In this document: in pieces, positions 2,683 through 51,448 of the stretch
Position numbering within the stretch: the stretch's first letter is position 1
Layout: every line of letters begins with the position of its first letter
NCBI GenBank assembly: GCA_017475035.1
Contig: JAFVGK010000159.1
Span: forward strand, 1-51,448
DNA: 51,448 bases
Direction of reading: 5' to 3'
DNA from: Blautia sp.
Lineage (GTDB): Bacteria > Bacillota > Clostridia > Lachnospirales > Lachnospiraceae
Made by a program: the position numbers and the translations under genes
Notes under the pieces: model-generated
What the model saw: the letters and a program-made list of their open reading frames with translations, nothing else
Databases searched by the model: none
Told to the model about the DNA's origin: nothing

Positions 2683-2695
2683 AGACAGAGGCAGG

Positions 2696-2761
2696 CTTTT
2701 GCCGATACGGCAAAATCGTCATCCGAAGATATCAGCGTACAGAACTTCGTTATGGGAGGAG
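2696..2761 (+). repeat. Family A element (copy A1) supplying the RBS of the sensor kinase
   Basis: Perfect 8-bp stem TTTTGCCG / CGGCAAAA (2697-2704, 2708-2715) with a 3-nt loop, then ATCGTCATCCGAAG, a GTACAGAACTTCG stretch and TATGGGAGGAG. The final GGGAGGAG is the ribosome-binding site of the gene starting at 2768. The hairpin begins 15 bp after the GH3 stop codon. Confidence 0.9.
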
Positions 2762-2767
2762 CAGAAA

Positions 2768-4393: not shown

Positions 4394-4420
4394 GGATCCA
4401 TTAATTTCAGTAGAAAGAGA

Positions 4421-4513
4421 TATATTTTGTCCTGGAGCGCCAAAGCGCGATAGGGTACAAAATAGTCATCCGGACAGTAAGTCACAGTTTATAACCTGCA
4501 TTATAGGAGGAGG
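4421..4513 (+). repeat. Family A-prime element (copy A9) supplying the RBS of hisH
   Basis: Hairpin with outer arms ATTTTGT (4424-4430) and ACAAAAT (4457-4463) and inner GCGC/GCGC, then AGTCATCCGGACAGTAAG and TTATAGGAGGAGG. The core and the end match family A. The hairpin half (CTGGAGC...) defines a subfamily shared with 10731-10808 and 33941-33990. Confidence 0.8.
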
Positions 4514-4518
4514 TAAAC

Positions 4519-5124
4519 ATGTTAGCGATAATTGACTATGATGCCGGAAATATTAAAAGTGTTGAAAAAGCAGTCACTTTTTTGGGAGAAACGCCGGTCA
4601 TTTCCTCGGATCCGAATGTATTGCTTCAGGCAGACCATGTGATTCTGCCGGGTGTCGGCAATTTTGGAGATGCGATGGGAAATCTTCAAAAGTATGGCCT
4701 GGTTCCTGTGATTCATGACATCATTGAGAAAAGAACTCCGTTTCTCGGAATTTGCGTAGGTTTACAGCTTCTGTTTGAGGAAAGCGAAGAGAGTCCGGGG
4801 ATTGCCGGATTGGGAATTCTGAAAGGAAAGATCAGAAAAATACCTGAAGGAGAAGGAAGAAAGATCCCGCATATGGGGTGGAATTCCCTCCATTTTCCAA
4901 AGCAGGACCGGCTTTTTGCGGGAATTTCTGAAGGTGCATATGTTTACTTTGTCCATTCCTATTATCTGGATGCCGCGGATAAGGAAATTGTGACTGCGAA
5001 GACAGAGTATGGCGTCACAATTGACGCATCCGTCGCCCGGGAGAATATTCACGCCTGCCAGTTCCACCCGGAAAAAAGCGGGGAAGTAGGACTTGCGATT
5101 CTGAAGAACTTCCTGTTTATGTGA
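4519..5124 (+). CDS. hisH: Imidazole glycerol phosphate synthase, glutaminase subunit HisH
   Basis: A 201-aa class I glutamine amidotransferase. It hydrolyses glutamine and channels ammonia to HisF in the fifth step of histidine synthesis. The catalytic triad is visible as Cys79 in GICVGLQ with His183 and Glu185 in HPEKSG. The oxyanion region PGVGNFGDAM is present. Length is normal. AGGAGGAGG lies 5 bp before the ATG and belongs to a dispersed repeat. hisF follows after 18 bp, so the two subunits are co-transcribed. The remaining his genes are not in the window. Confidence 0.97.
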   Translation: MLAIIDYDAGNIKSVEKAVTFLGETPVISSDPNVLLQADHVILPGVGNFGDAMGNLQKYGLVPVIHDIIEKRTPFLGICVGLQLLFEESEESPGIAGLGILKGKIRKIPEGEGRKIPHMGWNSLHFPKQDRLFAGISEGAYVYFVHSYYLDAADKEIVTAKTEYGVTIDASVARENIHACQFHPEKSGEVGLAILKNFLFM

Positions 5125-5904: not shown

Positions 5905-5951
5905 TCCGGGCTGCTTTCCGGGGTTTTTGAAGTTTGTGTCTAACAGGTGAC

Positions 5952-6045
5952 AGGTTTTGCTGCTTCGGCAGCTCAACTGCCGAAGCAGCAAAATCTTTAC
6001 CCGAATGATTTGAGTCAACGTACAAAGCTGTGTTATGGGAGGAGG
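5952..6045 (+). repeat. Family A element, best copy (A2), RBS of the MEMO/AMMECR1 gene
   Basis: Perfect 17-bp inverted repeat TTTTGCTGCTTCGGCAG (5955-5971) / CTGCCGAAGCAGCAAAA (5977-5993) around CTCAA. It is followed by a diverged core, TTGAGTCAACGTACAAAG and TTATGGGAGGAGG. The last bases are the ribosome-binding site of the ATG at 6053. The right half matches the copy inside the aminotransferase gene almost base for base. Confidence 0.95.
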
Positions 6046-6052
6046 TTCTGCG

Positions 6053-7435
6053 ATGCCCATTGTTGCTGCGTTTATGGTTCCCCATCCTCCGATGATCGTC
6101 CCGGAGGTGGGGAGGGGAAGTGAAAAACAAATCCTTCAGACTACGAAAGCATATGAAAGAGTGGCTGAGGAGGTGGCTGCGCTCAATCCGGAAACCATTA
6201 TCATTTCCTCTCCTCATTCGGTGCTTTATTCCGATTATTTCCACATTTCTCCCGGTAAAGGTGCAGGCGGTTCTTTCGAAGATTTTCGTGCTCCTTCCGT
6301 CCGGTTTTCGGAAACCTATGATACAGAGCTGGTGGATGAGATCAGTTCCCTGGCAAAGGAGAAAGGCTTTCCTGCGGGAAAGATGGGAGAGAGGGAACGG
6401 AGGCTGGATCACGGCGTGATGGTGCCTTTGTATTTTATCCGTAAGAAATACCGGGATTTTAAGCTGGTTCGCATAGGTCTTTCCGGACTTCCGCTGACAG
6501 ATCACTATGTGCTGGGACAGTTGATTCAAAAGTCCGTGAACCGGTTGAATCGCCGCGTTGTCTATATCGCCAGCGGAGATCTTTCCCATAAGCTTCAGGA
6601 TTACGGACCTTATGGTTTTGCTCCGGAAGGACCGGAGTATGACCGGCGTATTATGGATGTTTGTTCCCGGGGCGCTTTTGGGGAGCTGTTTGATTTTGAA
6701 GAAAGCTTTTGCGAAAAGGCGGCAGAGTGCGGTCATCGCTCCTTCGTGATCATGGCGGGAGCTCTCGACGGCGTCTCGGTGAAGGCAGAACAATTTTCCC
6801 ATGAGGATGTGACCGGAGTCGGTTATGGGATCTGCAGTTTTTATCCCGGGGAAGAAAGCCCTGAAAGGCAGTTCTTAAAAGATTATCTGAGAAAAGAAGA
6901 GTCCCGTCTGCAGGAAGCAAAGGAAAAAGAAGATTCCTATGTCCGTCTTGCCAGGGAAGTAATTGATCATTATATATCTGAAGGGAGACGGATCGGTGTT
7001 CCCGCAGATATTCCAAAGGATATGAGGGAACAAAGGGCAGGCGTTTTTGTTTCCATTCATAAGCAGGGGAAGCTCCGAGGATGCATCGGCACAATTCAGC
7101 CTGTGACAGGCTCTGTCGCCCAGGAGATTATCGAAAACGCGATCAGTGCTTCTGTAAGAGATCCCAGATTTTCTCCGATTACGCCGGAGGAACTGCCCTG
7201 GCTGGAGCTGCACGTGGATGTCCTTGGCGTGCCTGAAGATATTGCTTCCGGTGAAGAACTGGATGTAAAACGTTATGGCGTCATCGTTTCCAGGGGAGGC
7301 AGAAGAGGTCTTCTTCTCCCGGATCTGGACGGAGTAGATACGGTAGAGCAGCAGATTGCCATCGCCAGACAAAAAGCCGGCATTTCCCCGCAGGAGCCAG
7401 TGAAGCTGCAGAGATTTGAAGTGATCAGACATTGA
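6053..7435 (+). CDS. MEMO/AMMECR1 fusion protein (AmmeMemoRadiSam proteins B and A)
   Basis: A 460-aa two-domain protein. Residues about 1-260 are a MEMO domain, related to class III extradiol dioxygenases, with histidines in VPHPPMIVP, SSPHS and LDHGVMVPLYF that mark the metal pocket. Residues about 285-460 are an AMMECR1 domain with its hallmark LRGCIGTI. In many bacteria and archaea these are two genes (proteins B and A of the AmmeMemoRadiSam system) beside a radical SAM gene. Here A and B are fused and the radical SAM enzyme follows about 100 bp later. I know of no settled biochemical role for the bacterial trio. The frame opens at 6035, but ATG 6053 has GGGAGGAGG 7 bp upstream. Confidence 0.9.
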   Translation: MPIVAAFMVPHPPMIVPEVGRGSEKQILQTTKAYERVAEEVAALNPETIIISSPHSVLYSDYFHISPGKGAGGSFEDFRAPSVRFSETYDTELVDEISSLAKEKGFPAGKMGERERRLDHGVMVPLYFIRKKYRDFKLVRIGLSGLPLTDHYVLGQLIQKSVNRLNRRVVYIASGDLSHKLQDYGPYGFAPEGPEYDRRIMDVCSRGAFGELFDFEESFCEKAAECGHRSFVIMAGALDGVSVKAEQFSHEDVTGVGYGICSFYPGEESPERQFLKDYLRKEESRLQEAKEKEDSYVRLAREVIDHYISEGRRIGVPADIPKDMREQRAGVFVSIHKQGKLRGCIGTIQPVTGSVAQEIIENAISASVRDPRFSPITPEELPWLELHVDVLGVPEDIASGEELDVKRYGVIVSRGGRRGLLLPDLDGVDTVEQQIAIARQKAGISPQEPVKLQRFEVIRH

Positions 7436-7437
7436 GG

Positions 7438-7531
7438 CTGATTTTACCTTTGGCAGCATAACTGCCGAAGCCGGAAAAATCATCGTCAGAAAACATTGAG
7501 TCAACGTACAGAACTTCGTTTCAGGAGGAGG
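7438..7531 (+). repeat. Family A element (copy A3) supplying the RBS of the radical SAM gene
   Basis: Hairpin with TTTGGCAG / CTGCCGAA arms around 7449-7468, then AAAAATCATCGTCAGAAAAC, TTGAGTCAACGTACAGAAC and TTCGTTTCAGGAGGAGG. It starts almost at the stop codon of the preceding gene and ends as the ribosome-binding site for ATG 7539. Confidence 0.9.
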
Positions 7532-7538
7532 CGGGTAC

Positions 7539-8375
7539 ATGGCGAAGTGTGAAGTGTGCTTTCGACATTGTGAAATCAAAGAGGGAGAGACCGGGTTTTG
7601 CGGAGGAAGAACCTGCACAGAAGGGAAAGTCTGTGCGGACAATTATGGGAGGATTACTTCCCTTGCCCTGGATCCGATCGAAAAGAAACCCTTGCGGCGC
7701 TTTCATCCTCACAGTATGATTTTGTCCGTGGGGAGCTACGGCTGCAACCTTCGTTGTCCTTTCTGCCAGAACTATGAGATATCCTGGTCGGAACAGGCGA
7801 TGAGGCTCCGGAACAAAACGGAACAGGTGCTGCCCCGCAGGCTGGCTGATATGGCAGCAAACACCCAAAGACAAGGAAACATCGGTCTTGCCTTTACCTA
7901 CAACGAGCCGCTGATCGGTTATGAATTTGTCCGGGATACAGCAAAGCTGATCCATGAGCAGGGTATGGCGAATGTGCTGGTTACAAACGGCATGGCGGAA
8001 TTACCTGTTCTGGAAGAGCTTCTTCCCTGGATAGACGCTATGAATATCGACCTGAAGGGTTTTACGGATCATTATTATGAGGATATACTTGGCGGTAAAA
8101 GAGATATGGTCATGCGGTTTATCGAACGCTGCGTCGGACATTGTCATGTGGAACTGACAACCCTGATTGTTCCGGGTGAGAATGATACGGAAGATGAAAT
8201 GCGGGCCTTAAGCGGATACATCGCAGAGCTGGATCCTGAGATTCCCCTGCATATTTCCCGGTTCTTTCCGAGGTTTCACATGAAAGACCGCGGAGCGACG
8301 GAAGTGAGCAGGATTTACAGACTTGCCGGGATTGCAAAAGAAAACCTGAGATATGTATATACAGGCAATTGCTGA
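7539..8375 (+). CDS. AmmeMemoRadiSam system radical SAM enzyme
   Basis: A 278-aa radical SAM protein, related to pyruvate formate-lyase-activating enzymes. The cluster motif is CNLRCPFC (CxxxCxxC), so a [4Fe-4S] cluster and S-adenosylmethionine are expected. A second cysteine group lies at the N-terminus (CEVCFRHC, then CGGRTC) and probably binds metal. TYNEP and the NIDLKGF strand are typical of the family. It pairs with the MEMO/AMMECR1 fusion upstream; the reaction is not known to me. Start ATG 7539 is set by AGGAGGAGG from repeat A3. recQ begins 33 bp after the stop, so the two may be co-transcribed. Confidence 0.93.
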   Translation: MAKCEVCFRHCEIKEGETGFCGGRTCTEGKVCADNYGRITSLALDPIEKKPLRRFHPHSMILSVGSYGCNLRCPFCQNYEISWSEQAMRLRNKTEQVLPRRLADMAANTQRQGNIGLAFTYNEPLIGYEFVRDTAKLIHEQGMANVLVTNGMAELPVLEELLPWIDAMNIDLKGFTDHYYEDILGGKRDMVMRFIERCVGHCHVELTTLIVPGENDTEDEMRALSGYIAELDPEIPLHISRFFPRFHMKDRGATEVSRIYRLAGIAKENLRYVYTGNC

Positions 8376-8408: not shown

Positions 8409-10727
8409 ATGACAAAATACGAGGTCTTAAAGACATACTTCGGATATGAGAGCTTTCGTCCGGGACAGGAGGAACTGATTGACGGACTGATGGAGGGGCG
8501 GGATGTCCTTGGCATTATGCCTACCGGCGCCGGAAAATCGATCTGTTACCAGATACCGGCGTTGCTGCTTCCCGGAATAACCCTCGTGATTTCCCCTCTG
8601 ATTTCTCTGATGAACGATCAGGTGCGGGCATTAAATGAAGCGGGGATCCATGCCGCTTACATTAACAGCTCCCTCTCGGAAAGGCAGATCTCTTTTGCTT
8701 TGGACCTGGCGAGGAAGGGGAAATACAAAATTATCTATGTTGCGCCTGAACGGCTGCTTACGCCGTTGTTTCAGATGTTTGTCCGGGATGTGACGATCTC
8801 CCTGGCTGCGGTGGATGAGGCTCATTGTGTGTCCCAATGGGGGCAGGATTTCAGGAAAAGCTATCTGCAGATCAGTGATTTTGTGGACGGTCTGAAAGAG
8901 CGTCCGCCGGTTGGCGCTTTTACAGCCACGGCAACGATATTAGTGCAGAAGGATATCCTGCAGTATTTAAAGCTGAATCATCCGCTGGAGTTAGTGGCAG
9001 GGTGCGACCGCCCGAACCTGTATTTCGCTGTCAGACAGGTGAGAAACCGTCTGCAGGAAGTCGTAAAATACACGGAAAACCACAAAGAAGATACAGGGAT
9101 CATCTATTGTTCCACAAGAAAAAATGTGGATAAGCTTTATGAAGCGCTCCTTGAAGCGGGGATCCGGGCAGGCCGTTATCACGCCGGACTTTCCGGTCAG
9201 GAAAGAACGAAGACGCAGGATGATTTTGTCTATGACCGAATCCAGGTGATAGTTGCGACGAACGCTTTCGGTATGGGGATTGATAAATCGAATGTCCGTT
9301 ATGTGCTGCATTACAACATGCCCCAGAGCATGGAAAATTACTACCAGGAAGCCGGCCGCGCGGGACGTGACGGAGAGCCTTCGGAATGTATTCTGTTCTA
9401 CAGCCCTCAGGATATTGTGATCAACAGGCTTTTGCTCTCCCACAAAGGAGAGCCGGAAGATGGAGGGGGTGATTACGGATATTCTGACTACGATATGAGT
9501 CAGGAGGAGCAGAAAGAAGAGATTGATTCTCATGATGAGTATCGTCTGCAGCAGATGATTCGCTATGCCAATGCGTCCCACTGCCTCAGGGGACAGCTCC
9601 TGAAATATTTTGGCCAGGAGCCGGAAACGGAAAACTGCGGCTTTTGTATGAACTGCGTAGAAGAGTTTGAAGAAAAGGATATTACCGAGGAAGCAAAACA
9701 GCTCATAAATTGTGTCTATGAGACGAGGCAGCGTTATGGCGTCATGGCTGTGATCGGAATTCTGCTGGGCAGTACGGCAAAAAAGATGGAACAGATCCAT
9801 GCTTCGTCATATAAATGTTACGGGAGGCTTTCCGGCAGCACAGAAGCTCTTTTGCGGCAGACGGCGGACAAGATGGTCTATGAGGGGTATTTAAAGACGA
9901 CGATGGACCGTTACCAGATCCTGAAGCTGGGAGATCGCTTCAGAGAATTATCACAGACGTCTTTAATGCTCAGAATACCCAAAAAGCCGGGAAAAGCTGA
10001 AAAGAAAGAAAATACGGCAGAAGCGGGCGCAACGAAAGCCGGTTTTTCTTCAGGCGGGAAATCGTCATCAAAAAAGAAAACCGCAGGACTATATGAGTTG
10101 AATACGTCCGGAAAAGAAATGTTTGAACATCTCCGCAGTCTCAGGAGAGAATTGGCGGAGGAAGCGCATATGCCTCCTTATATCATCTTTTCGGACGCGA
10201 CACTGGTTCAGATGTGTGTGCTTCAGCCTTCAGATGAAGAAGAGATGCTTTCGGTGAGCGGTGTCGGGAAACATAAATACGAACAATACGGGGAACGCTT
10301 CCTTACGGCAATCCGGGAAATGAATCACGGAGAAAAAACGGATAACGGAACGGTAGTGCCGGATGAAGAGCTGATCCCTGAAAAGGAAAAAGAAGACTTT
10401 TACCTGACAGAAGAGAAAGCTGGGCAGTTTGCGCCGGAAAAAGACTGTTCGCTGGGGGATCTGGTTAACCGACTGAATCTGCTCAGAGACGCGATTCATG
10501 TGAAAAAGCTGCTGCAGAAGGATATCAGGGCATATCTGGAAGAAAAGGGCGAAATACGAGAGATCAGAAAACCGGGTATATGGGATACCGTGATTACCGA
10601 AAAAGGAAAACAAAACGGAATCTCAGGCGTGGACTATACCAGAAGAGACGGAACTCCTTATCTGGGACTTATATTTTCTGAAGAAGCGCAGATGAGGATT
10701 GCGGAACATTATCGCAGAGATAAGTAA
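8409..10727 (+). CDS. recQ: ATP-dependent DNA helicase RecQ
   Basis: A 772-aa 3'-5' helicase acting in recombination and fork repair. The Walker A motif is MPTGAGKS (about residues 38-45), the box II motif is VDEAHCVSQWG, and helicase motif VI is QEAGRAGRDG. A zinc-binding region follows (C...CGFCMNC), then an RQC winged-helix region. An HRDC domain comes next (about 560-640, beginning GLYELNTSGKEMF). A linker rich in Lys, Gly and Ser (about 522-560) separates RQC from HRDC. The last about 125 residues form an extra C-terminal region that I do not recognise. The protein is longer than E. coli RecQ (about 610 aa). The ribosome-binding site is GAAAGG. Confidence 0.95.
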   Translation: MTKYEVLKTYFGYESFRPGQEELIDGLMEGRDVLGIMPTGAGKSICYQIPALLLPGITLVISPLISLMNDQVRALNEAGIHAAYINSSLSERQISFALDLARKGKYKIIYVAPERLLTPLFQMFVRDVTISLAAVDEAHCVSQWGQDFRKSYLQISDFVDGLKERPPVGAFTATATILVQKDILQYLKLNHPLELVAGCDRPNLYFAVRQVRNRLQEVVKYTENHKEDTGIIYCSTRKNVDKLYEALLEAGIRAGRYHAGLSGQERTKTQDDFVYDRIQVIVATNAFGMGIDKSNVRYVLHYNMPQSMENYYQEAGRAGRDGEPSECILFYSPQDIVINRLLLSHKGEPEDGGGDYGYSDYDMSQEEQKEEIDSHDEYRLQQMIRYANASHCLRGQLLKYFGQEPETENCGFCMNCVEEFEEKDITEEAKQLINCVYETRQRYGVMAVIGILLGSTAKKMEQIHASSYKCYGRLSGSTEALLRQTADKMVYEGYLKTTMDRYQILKLGDRFRELSQTSLMLRIPKKPGKAEKKENTAEAGATKAGFSSGGKSSSKKKTAGLYELNTSGKEMFEHLRSLRRELAEEAHMPPYIIFSDATLVQMCVLQPSDEEEMLSVSGVGKHKYEQYGERFLTAIREMNHGEKTDNGTVVPDEELIPEKEKEDFYLTEEKAGQFAPEKDCSLGDLVNRLNLLRDAIHVKKLLQKDIRAYLEEKGEIREIRKPGIWDTVITEKGKQNGISGVDYTRRDGTPYLGLIFSEEAQMRIAEHYRRDK

Positions 10728-10730
10728 AAT

Positions 10731-10808
10731 TCTGTACCGGAGCACAACAGGCTATATAAAATTTTCATCCGGACAGTATTCCGGAAAACTTCGTTTTGGA
10801 AGGAGGAG
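10731..10808 (+). repeat. Family A-prime element (copy A10) supplying the RBS of udp
   Basis: Contains ACCGGAGCACAACAGGC, then AAAATTTTCATCCGGACAGT, AAAACTTCGTTTTGG and AAGGAGGAG. The same hairpin half occurs at 4421 and 33941. The core and tail match family A. The terminal AAGGAGGAG is the ribosome-binding site for ATG 10814. Confidence 0.8.
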
Positions 10809-10813
10809 AAAAA

Positions 10814-11593
10814 ATGAGTACGGTTTATGACAGGGAAAAAGAGTTTCATTTACAGATTACGCCGGATCAGGTGGGAAAATATGTGCTTCTATGTGGTGAT
10901 CCCGCCCGATGCGAAAAGATTGCGGCCTGTTTTGATGAAGCGCATTTTGTTCATTCCAACAGGGAATATACGATCTTTACCGGCAAAATGGAGGGAGAGG
11001 ACGTAACGGTATGCAGTCACGGAATTGGCGGTCCTTCGACGGCCATCTGTCTGGAGGAACTGGTACATTGCGGCTGCCATACCTTTATCCGTGTCGGAAC
11101 CTCCGGGGGAATGGCAGTGGATGTCATGGGAGGCGATGTAGTCATAGGCACAGGCGCGATCCGAATGGAAGGAACCTCCAAGGAATATGCGCCGATCGAG
11201 TATCCTGCGGTGGCGGATTACAAAGTAGTGGACGCACTTGTCCGCGCGGCAAAGGAGTTTCCTGTAAATGCCCATGTTGGCGTCCTTCAGTGTAAAGACA
11301 GCTTTTATGGGCAGCATGATCCTTCTTCGATGCCTGTAGCATATGAACTCAAAGCAAAGTGGGATGCCTTTTTAAACTGTGGAGCCCTGGCCAGCGAGAT
11401 GGAGTCGGCAGCGTTATTTATCATTGCCGGGGTCCGCAAGGTGAGGGCAGGCTCCATCATGGCTGTGTTTGCGAATCAGACCAGGCGGGAACTGGGACTG
11501 GAGGATCCGATGGATAAGGATTCCGGCAAAGCAGTAAGGATCGCGGTTGAAGCAATGCGTATCCTGATAAGGGAAGACAGGAATCTGTCCTGA
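10814..11593 (+). CDS. udp: Uridine phosphorylase
   Basis: A 259-aa nucleoside phosphorylase-I family enzyme for pyrimidine salvage; it splits uridine with phosphate into uracil and ribose-1-phosphate. Family marks are LLCGDPARCEKIA (phosphate site), SHGIGGPSTAI, RVGTSGGM and the EMESAALF ribose-binding motif. QCKDSFYGQH fits uridine rather than purine phosphorylase. An earlier in-frame start at 10796 is less likely because AAGGAGGAG from a repeat lies 5 bp before ATG 10814. After the stop is an inverted repeat (11634-11687). No other salvage gene is near. Confidence 0.9.
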   Translation: MSTVYDREKEFHLQITPDQVGKYVLLCGDPARCEKIAACFDEAHFVHSNREYTIFTGKMEGEDVTVCSHGIGGPSTAICLEELVHCGCHTFIRVGTSGGMAVDVMGGDVVIGTGAIRMEGTSKEYAPIEYPAVADYKVVDALVRAAKEFPVNAHVGVLQCKDSFYGQHDPSSMPVAYELKAKWDAFLNCGALASEMESAALFIIAGVRKVRAGSIMAVFANQTRRELGLEDPMDKDSGKAVRIAVEAMRILIREDRNLS

Positions 11594-16376: not shown

Positions 16377-16383
16377 CAATAAG

Positions 16384-16479
16384 ATGATTCAGGCGACAAA
16401 AGGTCATGCAAAAATGAGCCTGCTCATTTTGCATAAGATTGGGTCGCCCGCAGAATCAGGCTTTTGTCGATGCAATCAT
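16384..16479 (+). repeat. Family B element, full-length copy (B2)
   Basis: Starts GATTCAGGCGACAAAAGG, then a hairpin with GCAAAAATGAGC / GCTCATTTTGC arms (16409-16432), GATTGGGTCGCCCGCAG and AATCAGGCTTTTGTCGATG. The CGACAAAAG near the left end and CTTTTGTCG near the right end are perfect inverted repeats. It fills most of the gap between greA and the nucleotidyltransferase gene. Confidence 0.9.
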
Positions 16480-16505
16480 GAATATAAGAAAAGAGGGAAA
16501 AAAGC

Positions 16506-24692: not shown

Positions 24693-24788
24693 TTACTCCT
24701 TCCATAATAAAGTTCTGTATGTTGACGCAATGCTTTCGGATGAAGGCTTCACTGATCCGCCAGCCGGACTGCCGAAGACAAAATCAGT
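24693..24788 (-). repeat. Family A element in inverted orientation (copy A4)
   Basis: Read on the minus strand it gives GATTTTGTCTTCGGCAGTCC, TTCATCCGAAAGC, TGCGTCAACATACAGAAC and TTATGGAAGGAG. Here the Shine-Dalgarno end points into the uvrC stop region (stop at 24687) and no gene follows it, so this copy has no translational job. Confidence 0.85.
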
Positions 24789-24819
24789 CTCCTGTCTGTG
24801 CAACTTTTCATATTTTTAC

Positions 24820-32717: not shown

Positions 32718-32751
32718 TAAGGAATCGAATGGGAGAAAATGATGTGAGGAG

Positions 32752-32834
32752 ACTGATTCTGCTGCTTCGGCAGCAGGGCTTACGAAGCAGCAGAATCATC
32801 ATGAGTCAACGTGCGCGCTTCGTTATGGGAGGAG
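32752..32834 (+). repeat. Family A element (copy A5) supplying the RBS of azlC
   Basis: Arms GATTCTGCTGCTTCG (32753-32767) and CGAAGCAGCAGAATC (32783-32797) form a perfect 15-bp stem. It is followed by ATGAGTCAACGTGCGCGC and TTCGTTATGGGAGGAG. The last bases are the ribosome-binding site of ATG 32847. The CATCCGAA core is reduced to ATCATC. Confidence 0.9.
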
Positions 32835-32846
32835 AGGGCTTTGAAA

Positions 32847-33575
32847 ATGGAAAATTATCGACATGGGGTAAAAGACGGCATCCCCATTGGGCTGGGATAT
32901 TTTGCCGTCTCTTTTACTTTTGGCATGATGGCCGTTTCCGGAGGACTGACGATCTGCCAGGCTGTTCTGATCTCCCTGACAAATCTGACTTCGGCAGGAC
33001 AGTTTGCCGGCCTGGATATTATTCTCGCCGCAGGTTCCTATTGGGAAATAGCGTTGACTGAGCTGGTGATCAATATGCGCTATTGTCTGATGTCCTTTTC
33101 TCTTTCTCAGAAATTACGCAGGGATGAAGCCTGGGGACATCGCTTCGCTGTTGCTTTCGGCGTCACGGATGAAATATTCGGCGTAAGCGCCAGTCAGCCG
33201 GGAAAGGTCAGTGCGTGGTATAATTATGGACTGATGACAGCGGCGATTCCGGGATGGACGATAGGAACCGCTGTCGGGGCGGTTTCAGGAAGCATTCTTC
33301 CGGATTTTATCGTCAGCGCATTGAGTGTGGCGATTTACGGGATGTTTCTTGCGATTATTATACCGCCGGCAAAAAAAGAACGTCCTGTTTTGTGTGTGGT
33401 GATCCTTGCCATGTTTTTAAGCTCTCTTTTTGCTTATGTACCGATGCTGAAGAATGTATCATCCGGATTTGCGATTATCATTATTACACTTGTGACCGCG
33501 TCTGCAGCCGCGTGGCTTTTCCCGATCCGGGATACGGATGAGAGAGAAAAGGCTGATCTGGGGGAAAAGAGATGA
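32847..33575 (+). CDS. azlC: AzlC family branched-chain amino acid exporter, large subunit
   Basis: A 242-aa inner-membrane protein with several hydrophobic spans. It starts with the family pattern GVKDGIPIGLGYFAVSFTFG and carries TNLTSAGQFAG and INMRYCLMS, typical of AzlC. With AzlD it should export branched-chain amino acids or analogues. ATG 32847 is 12 bp after GGGAGGAG of repeat A5; a GTG at 32811 is in frame but lies within the repeat. The stop overlaps the azlD start by 4 bp (ATGA), so the two are translationally coupled. Confidence 0.9.
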   Translation: MENYRHGVKDGIPIGLGYFAVSFTFGMMAVSGGLTICQAVLISLTNLTSAGQFAGLDIILAAGSYWEIALTELVINMRYCLMSFSLSQKLRRDEAWGHRFAVAFGVTDEIFGVSASQPGKVSAWYNYGLMTAAIPGWTIGTAVGAVSGSILPDFIVSALSVAIYGMFLAIIIPPAKKERPVLCVVILAMFLSSLFAYVPMLKNVSSGFAIIIITLVTASAAAWLFPIRDTDEREKADLGEKR

Positions 33576-33886
33576 AGGGTAATGTCTATATTTATATTCT
33601 GGTTATGGCGGGTGTGACATATCTGATCCGTATGTTTCCGTTGGTTCTTGTGAAAAAGGAAATTACCAGTTCCTGGGTGAAATCATTTCTTTATTACGTG
33701 CCGTATGCATGTCTGGCCGCCATGACGTTTCCGGCGATTTTATCTGCGACTGCCAGCGTGGCTTCGGCTGTTGTCGGTTTCGCTGTTGCCCTGGCAGCGG
33801 CGTATTATGAGAAGAGTTTATTGCAGGTTGCGCTGCTTGCCTGCCTGGCAGTATTTATAGCAGAGAGGATTCTTGCTTTTATATAG
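33572..33886 (+). CDS. azlD: AzlD family branched-chain amino acid exporter, small subunit
   Basis: A 104-aa membrane protein with three or four spans. TYLIRMFPLVL near the start and YVPYACLAAMTFPAIL are typical of AzlD. It overlaps azlC by 4 bp and should form the exporter with it. After its stop comes a cluster of four different repeats (33895-34089) before the next gene. Confidence 0.9.
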   Translation: MKGNVYIYILVMAGVTYLIRMFPLVLVKKEITSSWVKSFLYYVPYACLAAMTFPAILSATASVASAVVGFAVALAAAYYEKSLLQVALLACLAVFIAERILAFI

Positions 33887-33894
33887 CAGAAAGT

Positions 33895-33937
33895 GAAGCC
33901 GAAATCGTCATCTGAAGTACAAAACCGCGTTATGGGA
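33895..33937 (+). repeat. Family A element, truncated (copy A6)
   Basis: Contains GAAATCGTCATCTGAAG, GTACAAAACC and GCGTTATGGGAAAC. The palindrome is absent and the Shine-Dalgarno end has decayed (GGGAAAC). It begins just after azlD. Confidence 0.75.
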
Positions 33938-33940
33938 AAC

Positions 33941-33990
33941 ATATTTTTCCCGGAGCCCGACAGGCAGCAGAATAACCATCCGGACGGTAT
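33941..33990 (+). repeat. Family A-prime element, partial (copy A11)
   Basis: Contains TTCCCGGAGCCCGACAGGC then AGAATAACCATCCGGACGGT. It matches the hairpin half and core at 4421 and 10731 but lacks the Shine-Dalgarno end. Confidence 0.7.
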
Positions 33991-33994
33991 GTCG

Positions 33995-34053
33995 GCTTGC
34001 AGTCACTAAACAAATAAAATGCCTGCATTTTGATTCGTTTACTGACTGCAAGC
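33995..34053. repeat. Long nested palindrome (family C, copy 1)
   Basis: Outer 11-bp stem GCTTGCAGTCA (33995-34005) / TGACTGCAAGC (34043-34053). Inner arms TAAACAAATAAAATGC and GCATTTTGATTCGTTTA pair with two mismatches or bulges. The inner core resembles the hairpin at 44024-44053. Confidence 0.8.
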
Positions 34054-34811: not shown

Positions 34812-36068
34812 TTATCCCAGGATTCCGCTTTTCTTTACAGCGGCCAGAGCCTGTTTTATCTGATCCGGCGGAAGAACCAGCGCAAACCGGACATATCCTT
34901 CTCCATGAGGACCAAAACTGCTGCCGGGTGTACACAGAACCCCTGCTTTGTTCAGAAGATCCATACAAAAATCCATGCTGGAGCCTGATTTTGTCTTCGG
35001 CAGCCCGGCTGCCGGAGCAGCAGAATCGCCATCAGAAGGCCTTGAGTCAACGTTCAGAGCTGTGTTATGGGAGGCGGCATAGGATTCGGGAATCGGTGCC
35101 CAGACAAACATGCTTCCGTCAGCATCCGGAATATTCCATCCGATCTCTCTGGCTCCGCCGCAGAGAGCGTCGCGCCGCTCTTCATAATCCTTGCATTGTT
35201 GTTTAACCTGTTCAAGGGATCCCTTGAGGGCTGCGACCGCTGCTTTCTGGATAGGAAGAAACATTCCGAAATCGATCTGGCTCCTCAGGAGCTTTACGGC
35301 CTGGATGACATCCCTTCGGCCGATCAGGAAGCTGATCCGTGCACCGGTAACATTAAATGATTTGGAGAGGCTGAAAAACTCAACTCCCACATCCATAGCC
35401 TCAGGGGTGCCAAGGAAGCTTTTTCCCTCCGTGCCGGAGAAGATAATATCACTGTAAGCGTTGTCATGAATGATCAGGATATCATTTGCCTTTGCCCAGG
35501 CAACGAGCTTTTCATAGAAGGCAGGGGTTGCTATGGAACCGACCGGATTGGCAGGAAGATTGACGATCATTGCTTTGGCTTTCTTTGCGACTTCCTCCGG
35601 TATCCCCTCCAGCCAGGGCAGAAAACCATGTTCCTTTGTCAGGGGATAATACCAGGGCTCTGCTTCCGCCAGAAAAACGCCTGCCTGGAATACGGGATAG
35701 CACGGATCCGGAAGAAGGATCGTATCGCCCGGGTTTAATAACGCCAGGCACAAATGTCCCGTGCCTTCCTGCGTTCCGTAACAGCTCATGATCTGATCCG
35801 GTGAAATCGCAACACCGAAACGTTTTTGATAATATTCACATACCGCGTCCAGCAGCTCCGGTATATCCCTGAGAGAATATTTCCAGGATGCGGGATCTTT
35901 AGCGCTTTCGATTAAAGCCTCCATGATATGTTCCGGTGGTGTGAAATCCGGTGTGCCGATGCTGAGATTATAAATCTTTTTTCCCTGTCTTTCCAATTCC
36001 AGTCTTTTCTCGTTCAGTGAAGCGAAAATTTCATCGCCGAACCTCTGTATCCGGTTTGCAAATTCCAT
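34812..36068 (-). CDS. Class I/II PLP aminotransferase with an in-frame repeat insertion
   Basis: A 418-aa fold-type I aminotransferase, similar to LL-diaminopimelate/aspartate-type enzymes. The PLP lysine is in SLSKSFNVTGARISF. The cofactor pocket shows YGTQEGTGH and the DNAYSD Asp, and the C-terminal FGPHGEGYVRFAL carries the carboxylate-binding Arg. Between PIPESY and SMDFCMDLL, where relatives normally run straight on, about 31 extra residues rich in Ala, Ser and Asp are encoded by a family A repeat (34986-35078) read in antisense. The frame is intact. The insert lies in the C-terminal small domain, where a surface loop might tolerate it; activity is unproven. ATG 36068 follows AGGAGG. 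Substrate is uncertain. Confidence 0.88.
   Translation of the reverse strand: MEFANRIQRFGDEIFASLNEKRLELERQGKKIYNLSIGTPDFTPPEHIMEALIESAKDPASWKYSLRDIPELLDAVCEYYQKRFGVAISPDQIMSCYGTQEGTGHLCLALLNPGDTILLPDPCYPVFQAGVFLAEAEPWYYPLTKEHGFLPWLEGIPEEVAKKAKAMIVNLPANPVGSIATPAFYEKLVAWAKANDILIIHDNAYSDIIFSGTEGKSFLGTPEAMDVGVEFFSLSKSFNVTGARISFLIGRRDVIQAVKLLRSQIDFGMFLPIQKAAVAALKGSLEQVKQQCKDYEERRDALCGGAREIGWNIPDADGSMFVWAPIPESYAASHNTALNVDSRPSDGDSAAPAAGLPKTKSGSSMDFCMDLLNKAGVLCTPGSSFGPHGEGYVRFALVLPPDQIKQALAAVKKSGILG
34986..35078 (+). repeat. Family A element inserted in frame in the aminotransferase gene (copy A7)
   Basis: Plus strand reads GATTTTGTCTTCGGCAGCCC, GCTGCCGGAGCAGCAGAATC, GCCATCAGAAGG, TTGAGTCAACGTTCAGAG and GTGTTATGGGAGGCGG. 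It matches copy A2 (5952-6045) across about 30 bp at the right end with two changes. It is antisense to the gene and adds no stop codon. Confidence 0.92.
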
Positions 36069-47004: not shown

Positions 47005-47013
47005 GTGATTGGC

Positions 47014-48279
47014 ATGGCTATATTCGGAAAGAAAAATGAGAATTATATCTCAGGGAAAGAGACTCGCCGTATTTCCCGAGAAAACCGGAAAATTACCGCC
47101 GAGATGGAAAAAAAGAAAAACCGTAAAAATGTGCCGGAATCAGAATATATCGTAAAGATGAAAGACCCGGCGAATGTGGTCGAGTTTGACAACGTTCATA
47201 CCTATTTCTTTACGGATATCGGTACGGTCAAGGCTGTGGATGGGGTTTCCTTTGATGTTCCTTTGGGGAAGACCGTGGGAATCGTGGGAGAATCCGGCTG
47301 CGGTAAATCGGTAACCAGTCTGTCCCTCATGCAGCTGGTCCAGCGCCCCCAGGGTCAGACCGTGGAAGGACAGATCCGCTTTAACGCGGGAAATAAGGCC
47401 TATAATATCGTAAATACACCGACAGAGATCATGCAGCACTTGCGCGGCAATGAAATGTCCATGATTTTTCAGGAACCGATGACTTCTCTGAATCCGGTAT
47501 TCCGGATCGGAGAGCAGGTGGATGAGATCATAGAGCTTCATAATCCGTCATTCAGCAAAGCGCAGATTAAAGAACGCACGATAGAAATGTTAAAAATGGT
47601 AGGGATTGCCAACAGTGAAGGCGTATACCGGATGTATCCACATGAGCTTTCCGGAGGCATGAGACAGAGAATCTGTATTGCCATAGGTCTTGCATGTAAT
47701 CCGAGACTGATTATCGCCGACGAACCGACAACGGCCCTGGATGTGACGATCCAGGCTCAGATCCTGGACCTGATGCGTGAACTGAAGGATAAGATCCATT
47801 CTTCGATTATGCTGATCACCCATGATCTGGGCGTGATTGCGGAAATGGCAGACTATGTTGTCGTCATGTATGCGGGACGTGTTGTAGAGAAAGGAACGGC
47901 GACGGAGATATTTAAAAACCCTTCCCACCCCTATACGATCGGTCTGATGCGTTCAAAGCCGGTGGTTGGAAGGCAGGTGGACAAGCTTTACAGTATACCC
48001 GGCAAGGTACCGAATCCCATTGACATGCCTGATTACTGTTATTTCCGTGACCGTTGTGAAATGAGGTGTCCGGCCTGCCAGGGCGCTTATCCGGGGATCG
48101 TTCACTTAAGTCCGACACATGAAGTGAGCTGTTATCGATATGCCGAAGGAAAGGAGACGGATTCCGTCTTCGACAGCCCAACTGCCGAAGCGGCAAAATC
48201 GTCATCCGAAGAAAATGAGTCAACGTACAATCTTTCATCCGGGGAGGAGGGAAATACGGATGCAGCAGACAGGAACTGA
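47014..48279 (+). CDS. ABC transporter ATP-binding protein, OppD/DppD type, with repeat-encoded tail
   Basis: A 421-aa ATPase that powers the importer with the next gene product. Walker A GESGCGKS, signature LSGGMRQRI and Walker B LIIADEPTTALD are intact. The C-terminal oligopeptide-transporter domain carries its cysteine motif (CYFRDRCEMRCPAC). The normal protein should end near HEVSCYRYAEG. About 40 further residues, rich in Ser, Glu and Ala, are encoded by a family A repeat (48158-48250). The first 45 residues are basic and Lys/Arg-rich, longer than usual. ATG 47014 is preferred over GTG 47005, with GGTGAT upstream. The end overlaps the next gene by 20 bp. Confidence 0.92.
   Translation: MAIFGKKNENYISGKETRRISRENRKITAEMEKKKNRKNVPESEYIVKMKDPANVVEFDNVHTYFFTDIGTVKAVDGVSFDVPLGKTVGIVGESGCGKSVTSLSLMQLVQRPQGQTVEGQIRFNAGNKAYNIVNTPTEIMQHLRGNEMSMIFQEPMTSLNPVFRIGEQVDEIIELHNPSFSKAQIKERTIEMLKMVGIANSEGVYRMYPHELSGGMRQRICIAIGLACNPRLIIADEPTTALDVTIQAQILDLMRELKDKIHSSIMLITHDLGVIAEMADYVVVMYAGRVVEKGTATEIFKNPSHPYTIGLMRSKPVVGRQVDKLYSIPGKVPNPIDMPDYCYFRDRCEMRCPACQGAYPGIVHLSPTHEVSCYRYAEGKETDSVFDSPTAEAAKSSSEENESTYNLSSGEEGNTDAADRN
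48158..48250 (+). repeat. Family A element at the junction of two ATPase genes (copy A8)
   Basis: Reads GATTCCGTCTTCGACAGCCC, ACTGCCGAAGCGGCAAAATC, GTCATCCGAAGAAAATGAGT, CAACGTACAATC and TTTCATCCGGGGAGGAGG. Its sense strand is translated as the tail of the first ATPase, and its GGGGAGGAGG end is the ribosome-binding site of the second (ATG 48260). Confidence 0.92.
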
Positions 48280-51286: not shown

Positions 51287-51353
51287 ATGATTCAGGCGAC
51301 AAAAGGGCATGCAAAAATGAGCTCGCTCATTTTTGCATGAGATTGGGTCGCCC
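51287..51353 (+). repeat. Family B element, left end with perfect hairpin (copy B8)
   Basis: ATGATTCAGGCGACAAAAGG, then perfect 14-bp arms ATGCAAAAATGAGC (51309-51322) and GCTCATTTTTGCAT (51325-51338), then GAGATTGGGTCGCCCACAG. It matches the full copy at 16384, but after CACAG the sequence diverges, so the CTTTTGTCG end is missing. Confidence 0.88.
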
Positions 51354-51421
51354 ACAGACACGAGGAAGTAGCCATTTTGCACTATTTATACTTGACTTTG
51401 CAAATCTTTCTGTGCAAAATG

Positions 51422-51448
51422 AGCGGATTCCGAGTGGCTGTAGGTTGC
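51422..51448 (+). repeat. 27-bp direct repeat, identical to the first 27 bases
   Basis: Exact match to 1-27. Directly before it lies one arm of an inverted repeat (GTGCAAAATG, 51412-51421). Confidence 0.95.

Follow-up and report, generated by a model that had tools for sequence, protein, structure and literature searches.

A small, probably mobile repeat of a Blautia lineage that appears to insert mostly in Shine-Dalgarno sequences and to rebuild them

Introduction

How does one palindromic repeat come to stand at the ribosome-binding sites of genes that have no pathway in common? The question is raised by a 51,448-nt stretch of a Blautia genome, hereafter the window, in which the end of a dispersed repeat is the Shine-Dalgarno (SD) sequence of one gene after another. 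Small mobile repeats are generally assumed to persist by avoiding genes; the present element appears to enter a gene's most exposed point, the ribosome-binding site, and to be tolerated there because the site is put back. We consider it highly probable that the repeat is mobile but non-autonomous, that it inserts 3' of GGAG, in most cases within an SD sequence, and that it thereby restores the SD.

Results

Copies in the window

The original prediction had listed about eleven copies or fragments, and the covariance model together with direct reading confirmed all eleven places (Table 1). The motif TTATGGGAGGAGG, with up to two mismatches, occurs 10 times in the window against 1.5 expected, a number reached in none of 100 shuffles. 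A covariance model seeded with 30 genomic copies, the window copies at 5945 and 34979 among them, gave 16 matches up to E 10. Ten of these are element copies (all those in Table 1 except the C-like fragment), with scores above 80 bits in five (5945, 34979, 48152, 7432 and 24695) and weak ones at 33860 (18.7 bits) and 10720 (23.7 bits). Among the remaining six, four are reverse-strand matches falling on hairpins of listed copies, one, also on the reverse strand (5910-6003), overlaps the 5945 copy, and one is weak (31857). A further fragment near 33941, identified by direct reading of the sequence, brings the total in the window to 11 copies or fragments of an element of ~95 nt.

Table 1. Element copies in the window and two genes that they run into (SD, Shine-Dalgarno sequence)
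Feature	Positions	Strand	Context
Subfamily-A copy, left part degraded	2687..2762	+	SD of histidine kinase gene at 2768
Subfamily-C copy	4415..4513	+	SD of glutamine amidotransferase (hisH-like) gene at 4519
Subfamily-A copy, full	5945..6045	+	SD of LigB/AMMECR1 gene at 6053
Subfamily-A copy	7432..7531	+	SD of radical SAM gene at 7539
Subfamily-C copy	10720..10806	+	SD of phosphorylase-superfamily gene at 10814
Subfamily-A copy, inverted	24695..24793	-	No gene start behind
Subfamily-A copy	32747..32835	+	SD of AzlC gene at 32850
Subfamily-A fragment	33860..33942	+	Abuts C-like fragment
Subfamily-C-like fragment	33934..33995	+	Read by eye
Subfamily-A copy	34979..35077	+	Antisense, in frame inside aminotransferase gene; net insertion 93 nt
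Aminotransferase gene with element as 31-codon insert	34815..36068	-	
Upstream transporter ATPase ORF	47005..48279	+	3' end reads through 48152 element
Subfamily-A copy	48152..48250	+	Where two oligopeptide-transporter ATPase genes meet; SD of gene at 48260

In seven window copies the right end is the SD of the next gene (Table 1), as had been proposed, and no pathway common to the seven different products was seen, the LigB/AMMECR1 and radical SAM genes being neighbours. The 7432 copy has its left end in contact with the preceding gene's stop codon. No Rfam covariance model matched any window copy, which agrees with the earlier statement that the repeat was not recognisable as a described family. 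A tRNA-derived repeat was considered and rejected, the window being without any tRNA.

Other palindromic sequences lie nearby. An inverted repeat with 25-nt arms (33995-34053) stands beside the two element fragments, and locus L119 has an element copy interrupted by a palindrome like it. A second dispersed palindromic family (TGATTCAGGCGACAAAAGG ... GCAGAATCAGGCTTTTGTCGATG) is found at 16379-16480 and also at 106, 22790, 34059, 37554, 39961 and 51282, with several copies just upstream of gene starts. The Rfam RNA Clostridiales-1 (RF01699) at 51288-51448 is cut by the window end, and its 5' part resembles this second family.

Plan of the element

Read 5' to 3', GGAG and AC(T)GATTTTG are followed by a first hairpin, CAAAATCGTCATCCG, the stretch TTGAGTCAACGTAC, a second, smaller hairpin (AAAACTTCGTTTT) and, at the right end, GGGAGGAG; the element is ~93 nt (subfamily A) or 97 nt (subfamily B) long, with one hairpin near each end. 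At least three subfamilies (A, B and C) share the ends and differ in the central hairpin. The order of the parts is constant, as the original prediction had it; in the subfamily-C copies at 4415 and 10720 both the hairpin and the 3' stem differ from those of A. In folding, the left half forms a long stem; five copies gave z-scores of -2.7 to -7.8.

GGAG stands at both ends as a direct and not an inverted sequence, and tandem copies meet at it. Among 100 copies with both ends the tetramer is GGAG on the left in 59 and on the right in 69. Deviating left tetramers were copied at the right end in 0 of 15, 3 of 17, 0 of 6 and 2 of 11 cases by position, near the composition expectation. There is therefore no sign of target duplication, in a test that is weak because the copies are old and many deviations are perhaps later mutations. 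Indeed, mean identity to the consensus is 83% (A) and 89% (B), with 96% for the best pair; the copies are old, and recent movement is not demonstrated by these identities.

The 3' stem before GAGGAG is paired by different sequences across subfamilies and species (CAAAAC/GTTTTG, TTACAAT/ATTGTAA, TATAAC/GTTATA, CAAATC/GATTTG, TTATAC/GTATAA and TAGAAC/GTTCTA). Of 86 pattern hits, a set that includes unrelated sequence, 35 have a stem of at least 5 pairs, against 8% in shuffles, and 46 have none of at least 4 pairs. Since pairing is kept while the sequence changes, the 3' hairpin may well matter to the element itself, whether in RNA or in single-stranded DNA form. In the main hairpin, compensatory changes were found at 0 of 13 predicted pairs (30 A copies), as is expected of copies decaying after insertion.

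Copy number and distribution

Profile and covariance searches of the host genome and its relatives, which had been suggested as a check, indicate hundreds of copies in the host. A sample of the 5.08-Mb host draft (1,133,257 nt, 22% of the genome) contained 186 non-overlapping copies (nhmmer, three models), 165 of them at E<1e-4, and the same sequence shuffled in three-base blocks contained none. The sample comprises 56 loci including the window, drawn from large contigs of which many were known beforehand to hold copies. Extrapolation gives roughly 830 copies per genome, a rough figure whose underlying density may be high given the large-contig sampling. BLAST with the first copy returned 74 matches in the host genome, many being the palindrome read on the other strand, and covariance model R1 returned at least 150 matches at E 1e-11 or better when 150 of 2723 candidate places were scored.

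The element is restricted in lineage. Of 64 genomes searched in the genus, 7 are carriers by model R1 (E<=1e-4), and in a family-wide sample of 397 genomes, with ten candidates per genome scored, the one positive was the host genome itself. The exact tail pattern occurs in 12 stretches of named genome contigs, whose titles (Blautia sp. RGIG5706 from sheep duodenum; uncultured Lachnospiraceae RUG12864, RUG12824 and RUG12865; an uncultured Clostridia bin) make the named carriers Blautia/Lachnospiraceae MAGs. The 17 copies that were read from the six other carriers differ from the host versions, to a varying degree, and B-like copies are present in carriers G433 and G452. The copy at 5945 had no match in plasmids or phages, and a tail pattern had none in viral contigs.

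Position at Shine-Dalgarno sites

A complete right end is present in 155 copies. With gene starts called by a simple rule (a start codon and an open frame, no gene finder), 103 of these are followed after 3-16 nt by the start codon of an ORF of at least 60 aa. These starts are ATG in 87 cases, GTG in 12 and TTG in 4, and the commonest distance is 8. A further feature of the complete right ends is that 21 of the 155 abut another copy, two of these being also among the 103. Start codons were much rarer in the controls. The antisense side of the left end gave 8 of 133, shifted positions gave 1281 of 7156 (18%) and GGAGG sites outside elements gave 586 of 2436 (24%). The difference between 66% at starts and the 24% of chance GGAGG insertion implies a longer target or the loss of harmful insertions, which are indistinguishable here. 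The 103 SD copies in 22% of the genome extrapolate to about 460 host genes with an SD from the repeat, or roughly one in ten at about one gene per kb.

The original prediction held that the palindrome varies while the right end is kept, as if fixed by selection or by the insertion mechanism. The right end is in fact no better conserved: per-base differences are 17.5% there against 15.4% in the body for SD copies, and 16.6% against 15.5% for other copies. Truncation tells the same story, with 32 of 48 5'-truncated copies and 71 of 107 full copies at SD sites. As SD copies and other copies are alike in per-base rates, and truncated copies equal full ones in SD frequency, selection on the right end finds no support and was dropped as an explanation. 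The abundance of SD copies thus seems to reflect a preference of insertion, or of its survival, for SD sites, and not the retention of the right end alone.

The truncated copies could also suggest spread through an RNA copy by reverse transcription, which would account for a missing 5' part and with which a right end common to all subfamilies is compatible. Right-end-only copies do outnumber left-end-only copies (48 against 26), but this count is biased by the search, in which an additional model covered the right tail and no such model the left. Moreover, truncated left junctions read by eye have no GGAG, so that later deletion is simpler, and we hold the route through RNA to be quite improbable.

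Empty sites and the insertion point

If the element is mobile and inserts in SD sequences, as we favour, orthologous junctions in relatives should be found without it. Comparison of orthologous loci gave empty sites at three SD junctions and in two coding genes. In the first junction, a gene pair that we take from its sequence to be of hydrogenase type, the host reads CACAGAGGGGAA, a 92-nt insertion and GCGGATACA-ATG, and relative G427 reads CACAGAAGGGAG directly followed by GCAGAAACC-ATG. In an ABC pair the host has AGAAAAGGAG, 93 nt and GTGGACTG-ATG where relative G411 has ACAAAAGGAG joined to GCAGATGATCC-ATG. In the third, presumably an Hsp33-like pair to judge from its sequence, TTATTAAGGAG, 97 nt and ATGATTGTTC-ATG in the host correspond to AAATAAAGGAG joined to GAAATTTTTTTAT-ATG in G411. 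At all three the element lies inside the host SD (GGAG^G), 6-13 nt before the start, and the spacing to ATG is unchanged. It follows from these alignments that the host SD ends up to the left of the element and that the element's own GGAGGAG replaces it on the right.

These three sites came from 18 junctions tried, 12 in a first set and 6 of 8 in a second, most of the others having no adjacent orthologues, imprecise starts or variable spacing. Even the Hsp33-like spacer measures 4, 10, 18, 18, 58, 117, 145 and 197 nt in eight relatives, and just some of these fit the host spacer minus the element. For window junctions 7432 and 4415 there was no such fit in the relatives; junction 48152 (93 nt) fits the same GGAG^G reading, with no comparable junction in the relatives with hits. 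The window genes at 4519, 6053 and 7539 have orthologues in relative G433, itself a carrier, and the stretches compared there contain no element. One case stands apart: at L142:17809-17909 (-) an overlapping gene pair is split by the element, both genes keep their ends and about 30 nt of host sequence is found on both sides, an arrangement that simple insertion leaves unexplained.

Copies inside protein genes

A minority of copies lie in frame within genes. Sense copies occur in genes for a UvrD-like helicase (presumably HelD-like, from its domains), a binding-protein transport permease, a BadF/HGD-D protein, anthranilate synthase I (which its domains lead us to take as TrpE), a CbiA-like protein and a DUF2264 protein; the class I/II aminotransferase of the window carries an antisense copy. 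Subfamily A amounts to 31 codons and is stop-free in one sense frame, and the six genes with sense copies use one common frame, yielding a peptide like ETDFVFGSPTAEAAKSSSEDIESTYKTALWEE. The CbiA-like gene (L139:17784-19499, +) contains three tandem copies, all in frame.

The insert in the aminotransferase and HelD-like genes is exactly 93 nt (31 codons) net. It adds about 30 residues to the aminotransferase against solved structures and is absent in 8 of 8 aligned relatives (11 with hits), as it is from the HelD-like gene in 3 of 3. TrpE is about 31 codons longer than in four of five relatives by hand count, the fifth having a long linker of its own. Length differences of ~30 codons (DUF2264) and ~49 codons (permease) give the exact insert length in neither gene. 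The length is a multiple of three in 9 of 9 accepted in-gene copies, against 17 of 35 subfamily-A SD copies without a through-going frame (Fisher p 0.006). The nine were accepted from 12 cases after two neighbouring antisense copies (L108, a doubtful gene) and one 91-nt copy (L181) had been dropped, three of them are tandem copies of one gene and one, in L115, lies in an ORF without Pfam match; 15 SD copies were kept out of the group of 35 because a frame runs through them.

These observations bear on the view that the repeat is a conserved cis-regulatory leader RNA, belonging to a regulon or riboswitch-like, that spread with its genes. Strong folding in the five copies and the placing of most copies in 5' leaders are what such an RNA would lead one to expect. 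Yet the genes downstream in the window are unrelated, in-gene copies stand in both orientations, the element is absent from the same genes in relatives and the main hairpin has no compensatory change at its 13 predicted pairs in 30 copies. Neither of the two results that the original prediction held against mobility, the same leader at the same genes in distant genera or a genome-wide count of a few copies, was found. We judge a leader RNA very improbable; the variant with trans regulation, raised in the original prediction, likewise finds no support in the present analysis.

Candidate mobilising enzymes

What might move a repeat of this size? Single-strand (Y1-type) transposition of the IS200/IS605 kind keeps a fixed 5' target on the left, involves hairpins near both ends and makes no target duplication. 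The present element has the fixed left target and the two hairpins expected of IS200/IS605-derived elements, target duplication being weakly tested, and its fixed left flank with a hairpin next to each end suggests, as a lead, that it may move in this way.

Genes for the Y1 transposase family were found in 19 of 26 genomes searched. The host genome has just a 59-codon IS200-like fragment, which lies at the end of a contig and has another terminal hairpin behind it; a full RAYT (REP-associated Y1 transposase) was not found in this draft, which holds the most copies of all carriers. A RAYT-like protein of G427 has a relative in G452 alone among the 26 genomes, that is, in two of seven carriers, and in these drafts no recognisable element copy flanks the Y1 genes of either. 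Nor did any of five carrier Y1 loci read in the drafts encode a Y1 transposase with matching ends, and a transposase with the element's ends was not found in the draft genomes searched, which are incomplete. A Y1 transposase is therefore not supported as the proven mobiliser, given the host fragment with its other hairpin and a G427 RAYT-like protein not found in five of seven carriers. Relatives G432 and G400 have 13 and 14 Y1-family matches, and no copy of the element was found in them.

A hairpin with GGAG at its foot, a target kept on the left flank, the lack of a target duplication (weakly tested) and long Y1 proteins in two of seven carriers are all features that a REP/REPIN-type element, moved in trans by a RAYT or another IS200/IS605 enzyme, would display. 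Set against them are the host draft, richest in copies, in which a full RAYT was not found, and the two Y1 loci without a recognisable flanking copy; we regard membership of this type as rather unlikely.

A larger autonomous element was sought among same-strand pairs of left-only and right-only ends within 7 kb, of which there are five in the 22% host sample. Two of these pairs are in fact one copy each, split by other sequence. A third encloses a 461-aa ORF that, judged by eye, does not resemble a transposase, and the last two cover >6 kb with several ORFs. With no evident transposase in these five pairs, the last two of which had no gene-by-gene search, a larger autonomous element is not supported.

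Discussion

We therefore return to a non-autonomous element that would insert directly 3' of a host GGAG (GGAG^G), with most visible insertions at SD sequences. Because the inserted DNA ends in GGGAGGAG, the downstream gene would regain an SD at the old distance from its start codon, and this new SD presumably works in the cell. Subfamily A would be tolerated inside genes too, because its 31 codons are without a stop in one sense frame. Movement would depend on an enzyme acting in trans, which we infer, as we do the order of cuts at insertion.

The proposal that a mobile element survives by landing before genes and giving them a good ribosome-binding site is thus supported, with a refinement. 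Mobility agrees with the hundreds of copies, the empty sites and the absence from most genomes of the genus, but what the element does at the SD is to replace one that exists. It gives no ribosome-binding site to genes without one: it enters an existing GGAG(G), mostly a host SD, and in a minority of cases lies in frame inside genes.

It is quite possible, and we suggest it tentatively, that this represents a new class of mobile element, whose target is the SD itself, whose body carries the replacement SD and which an enzyme acting in trans would have spread to roughly a tenth of the start sites of a genome. The Blautia lineage allows a base-by-base comparison of empty and filled sites, which makes it possible to test both how translation starts evolve and by what means repeats without their own enzyme are moved.

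Among matches listed for the open-access literature there was no paper on the present element and no description of repeats that insert into and restore SD sequences. REP sequences carry an unpaired GTAG or CGTC tag at one end of a 20-40 nt palindrome, reach high copy number, are in some families species-specific and lie mainly downstream of coding regions, according to PMC3733652, in the main text of which the terms 'Firmicutes' and 'Clostridi' do not appear. A high-copy hairpin repeat with a fixed terminal tetranucleotide is common to both, whereas the present element has GGAG as its left tag, measures 93-97 nt with two hairpins, lies upstream of starts and has no full RAYT found with it. 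Like the MITEs (Correia, RUP, ERIC) it is a short non-autonomous dispersed repeat, but GGAG stands direct at both ends, with no pair of terminal inverted repeats recognised, and target duplication was undetected in a weak test.

Rickettsia palindromic elements (RPEs) are short palindromic dispersed repeats of 105-146 bp that are also found in frame inside unrelated conserved protein genes (PMC2229807, PMC10969869), and 'Shine-Dalgarno' and 'ribosome binding' are absent from the main text of both sources. As far as these texts describe them, RPEs share with the present element the in-frame insertion in unrelated protein genes; here, in contrast, most copies stand at SD sites, the length is 93 or 97 nt, the host is one of the Lachnospiraceae and a target, GGAG, is identified. 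Mycobacterial interspersed repetitive units (MIRUs) are mobile-looking repeats that insert at start codons, bring an ORF of their own coupled to the gene and probably have little effect on it (PMC12548453). They have in common with the present element the habit of start sites, but the latter enters the SD and supplies a new one; at the three junctions with empty sites it went in 6-13 nt before the start and not at the start codon. The shared habits, in-frame insertion in RPEs and start-site insertion in MIRUs, might suggest true membership of one of these families, but the target differs, as do the hosts of RPEs and MIRUs from the Lachnospiraceae host, and we find membership extremely improbable. 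Judged by the texts available to us, the closest kinds are RPEs for insertion in frame and MIRUs for insertion at the start codon. We place the element with the non-autonomous small mobile repeats, and in none of the RPE, MIRU or REP families.
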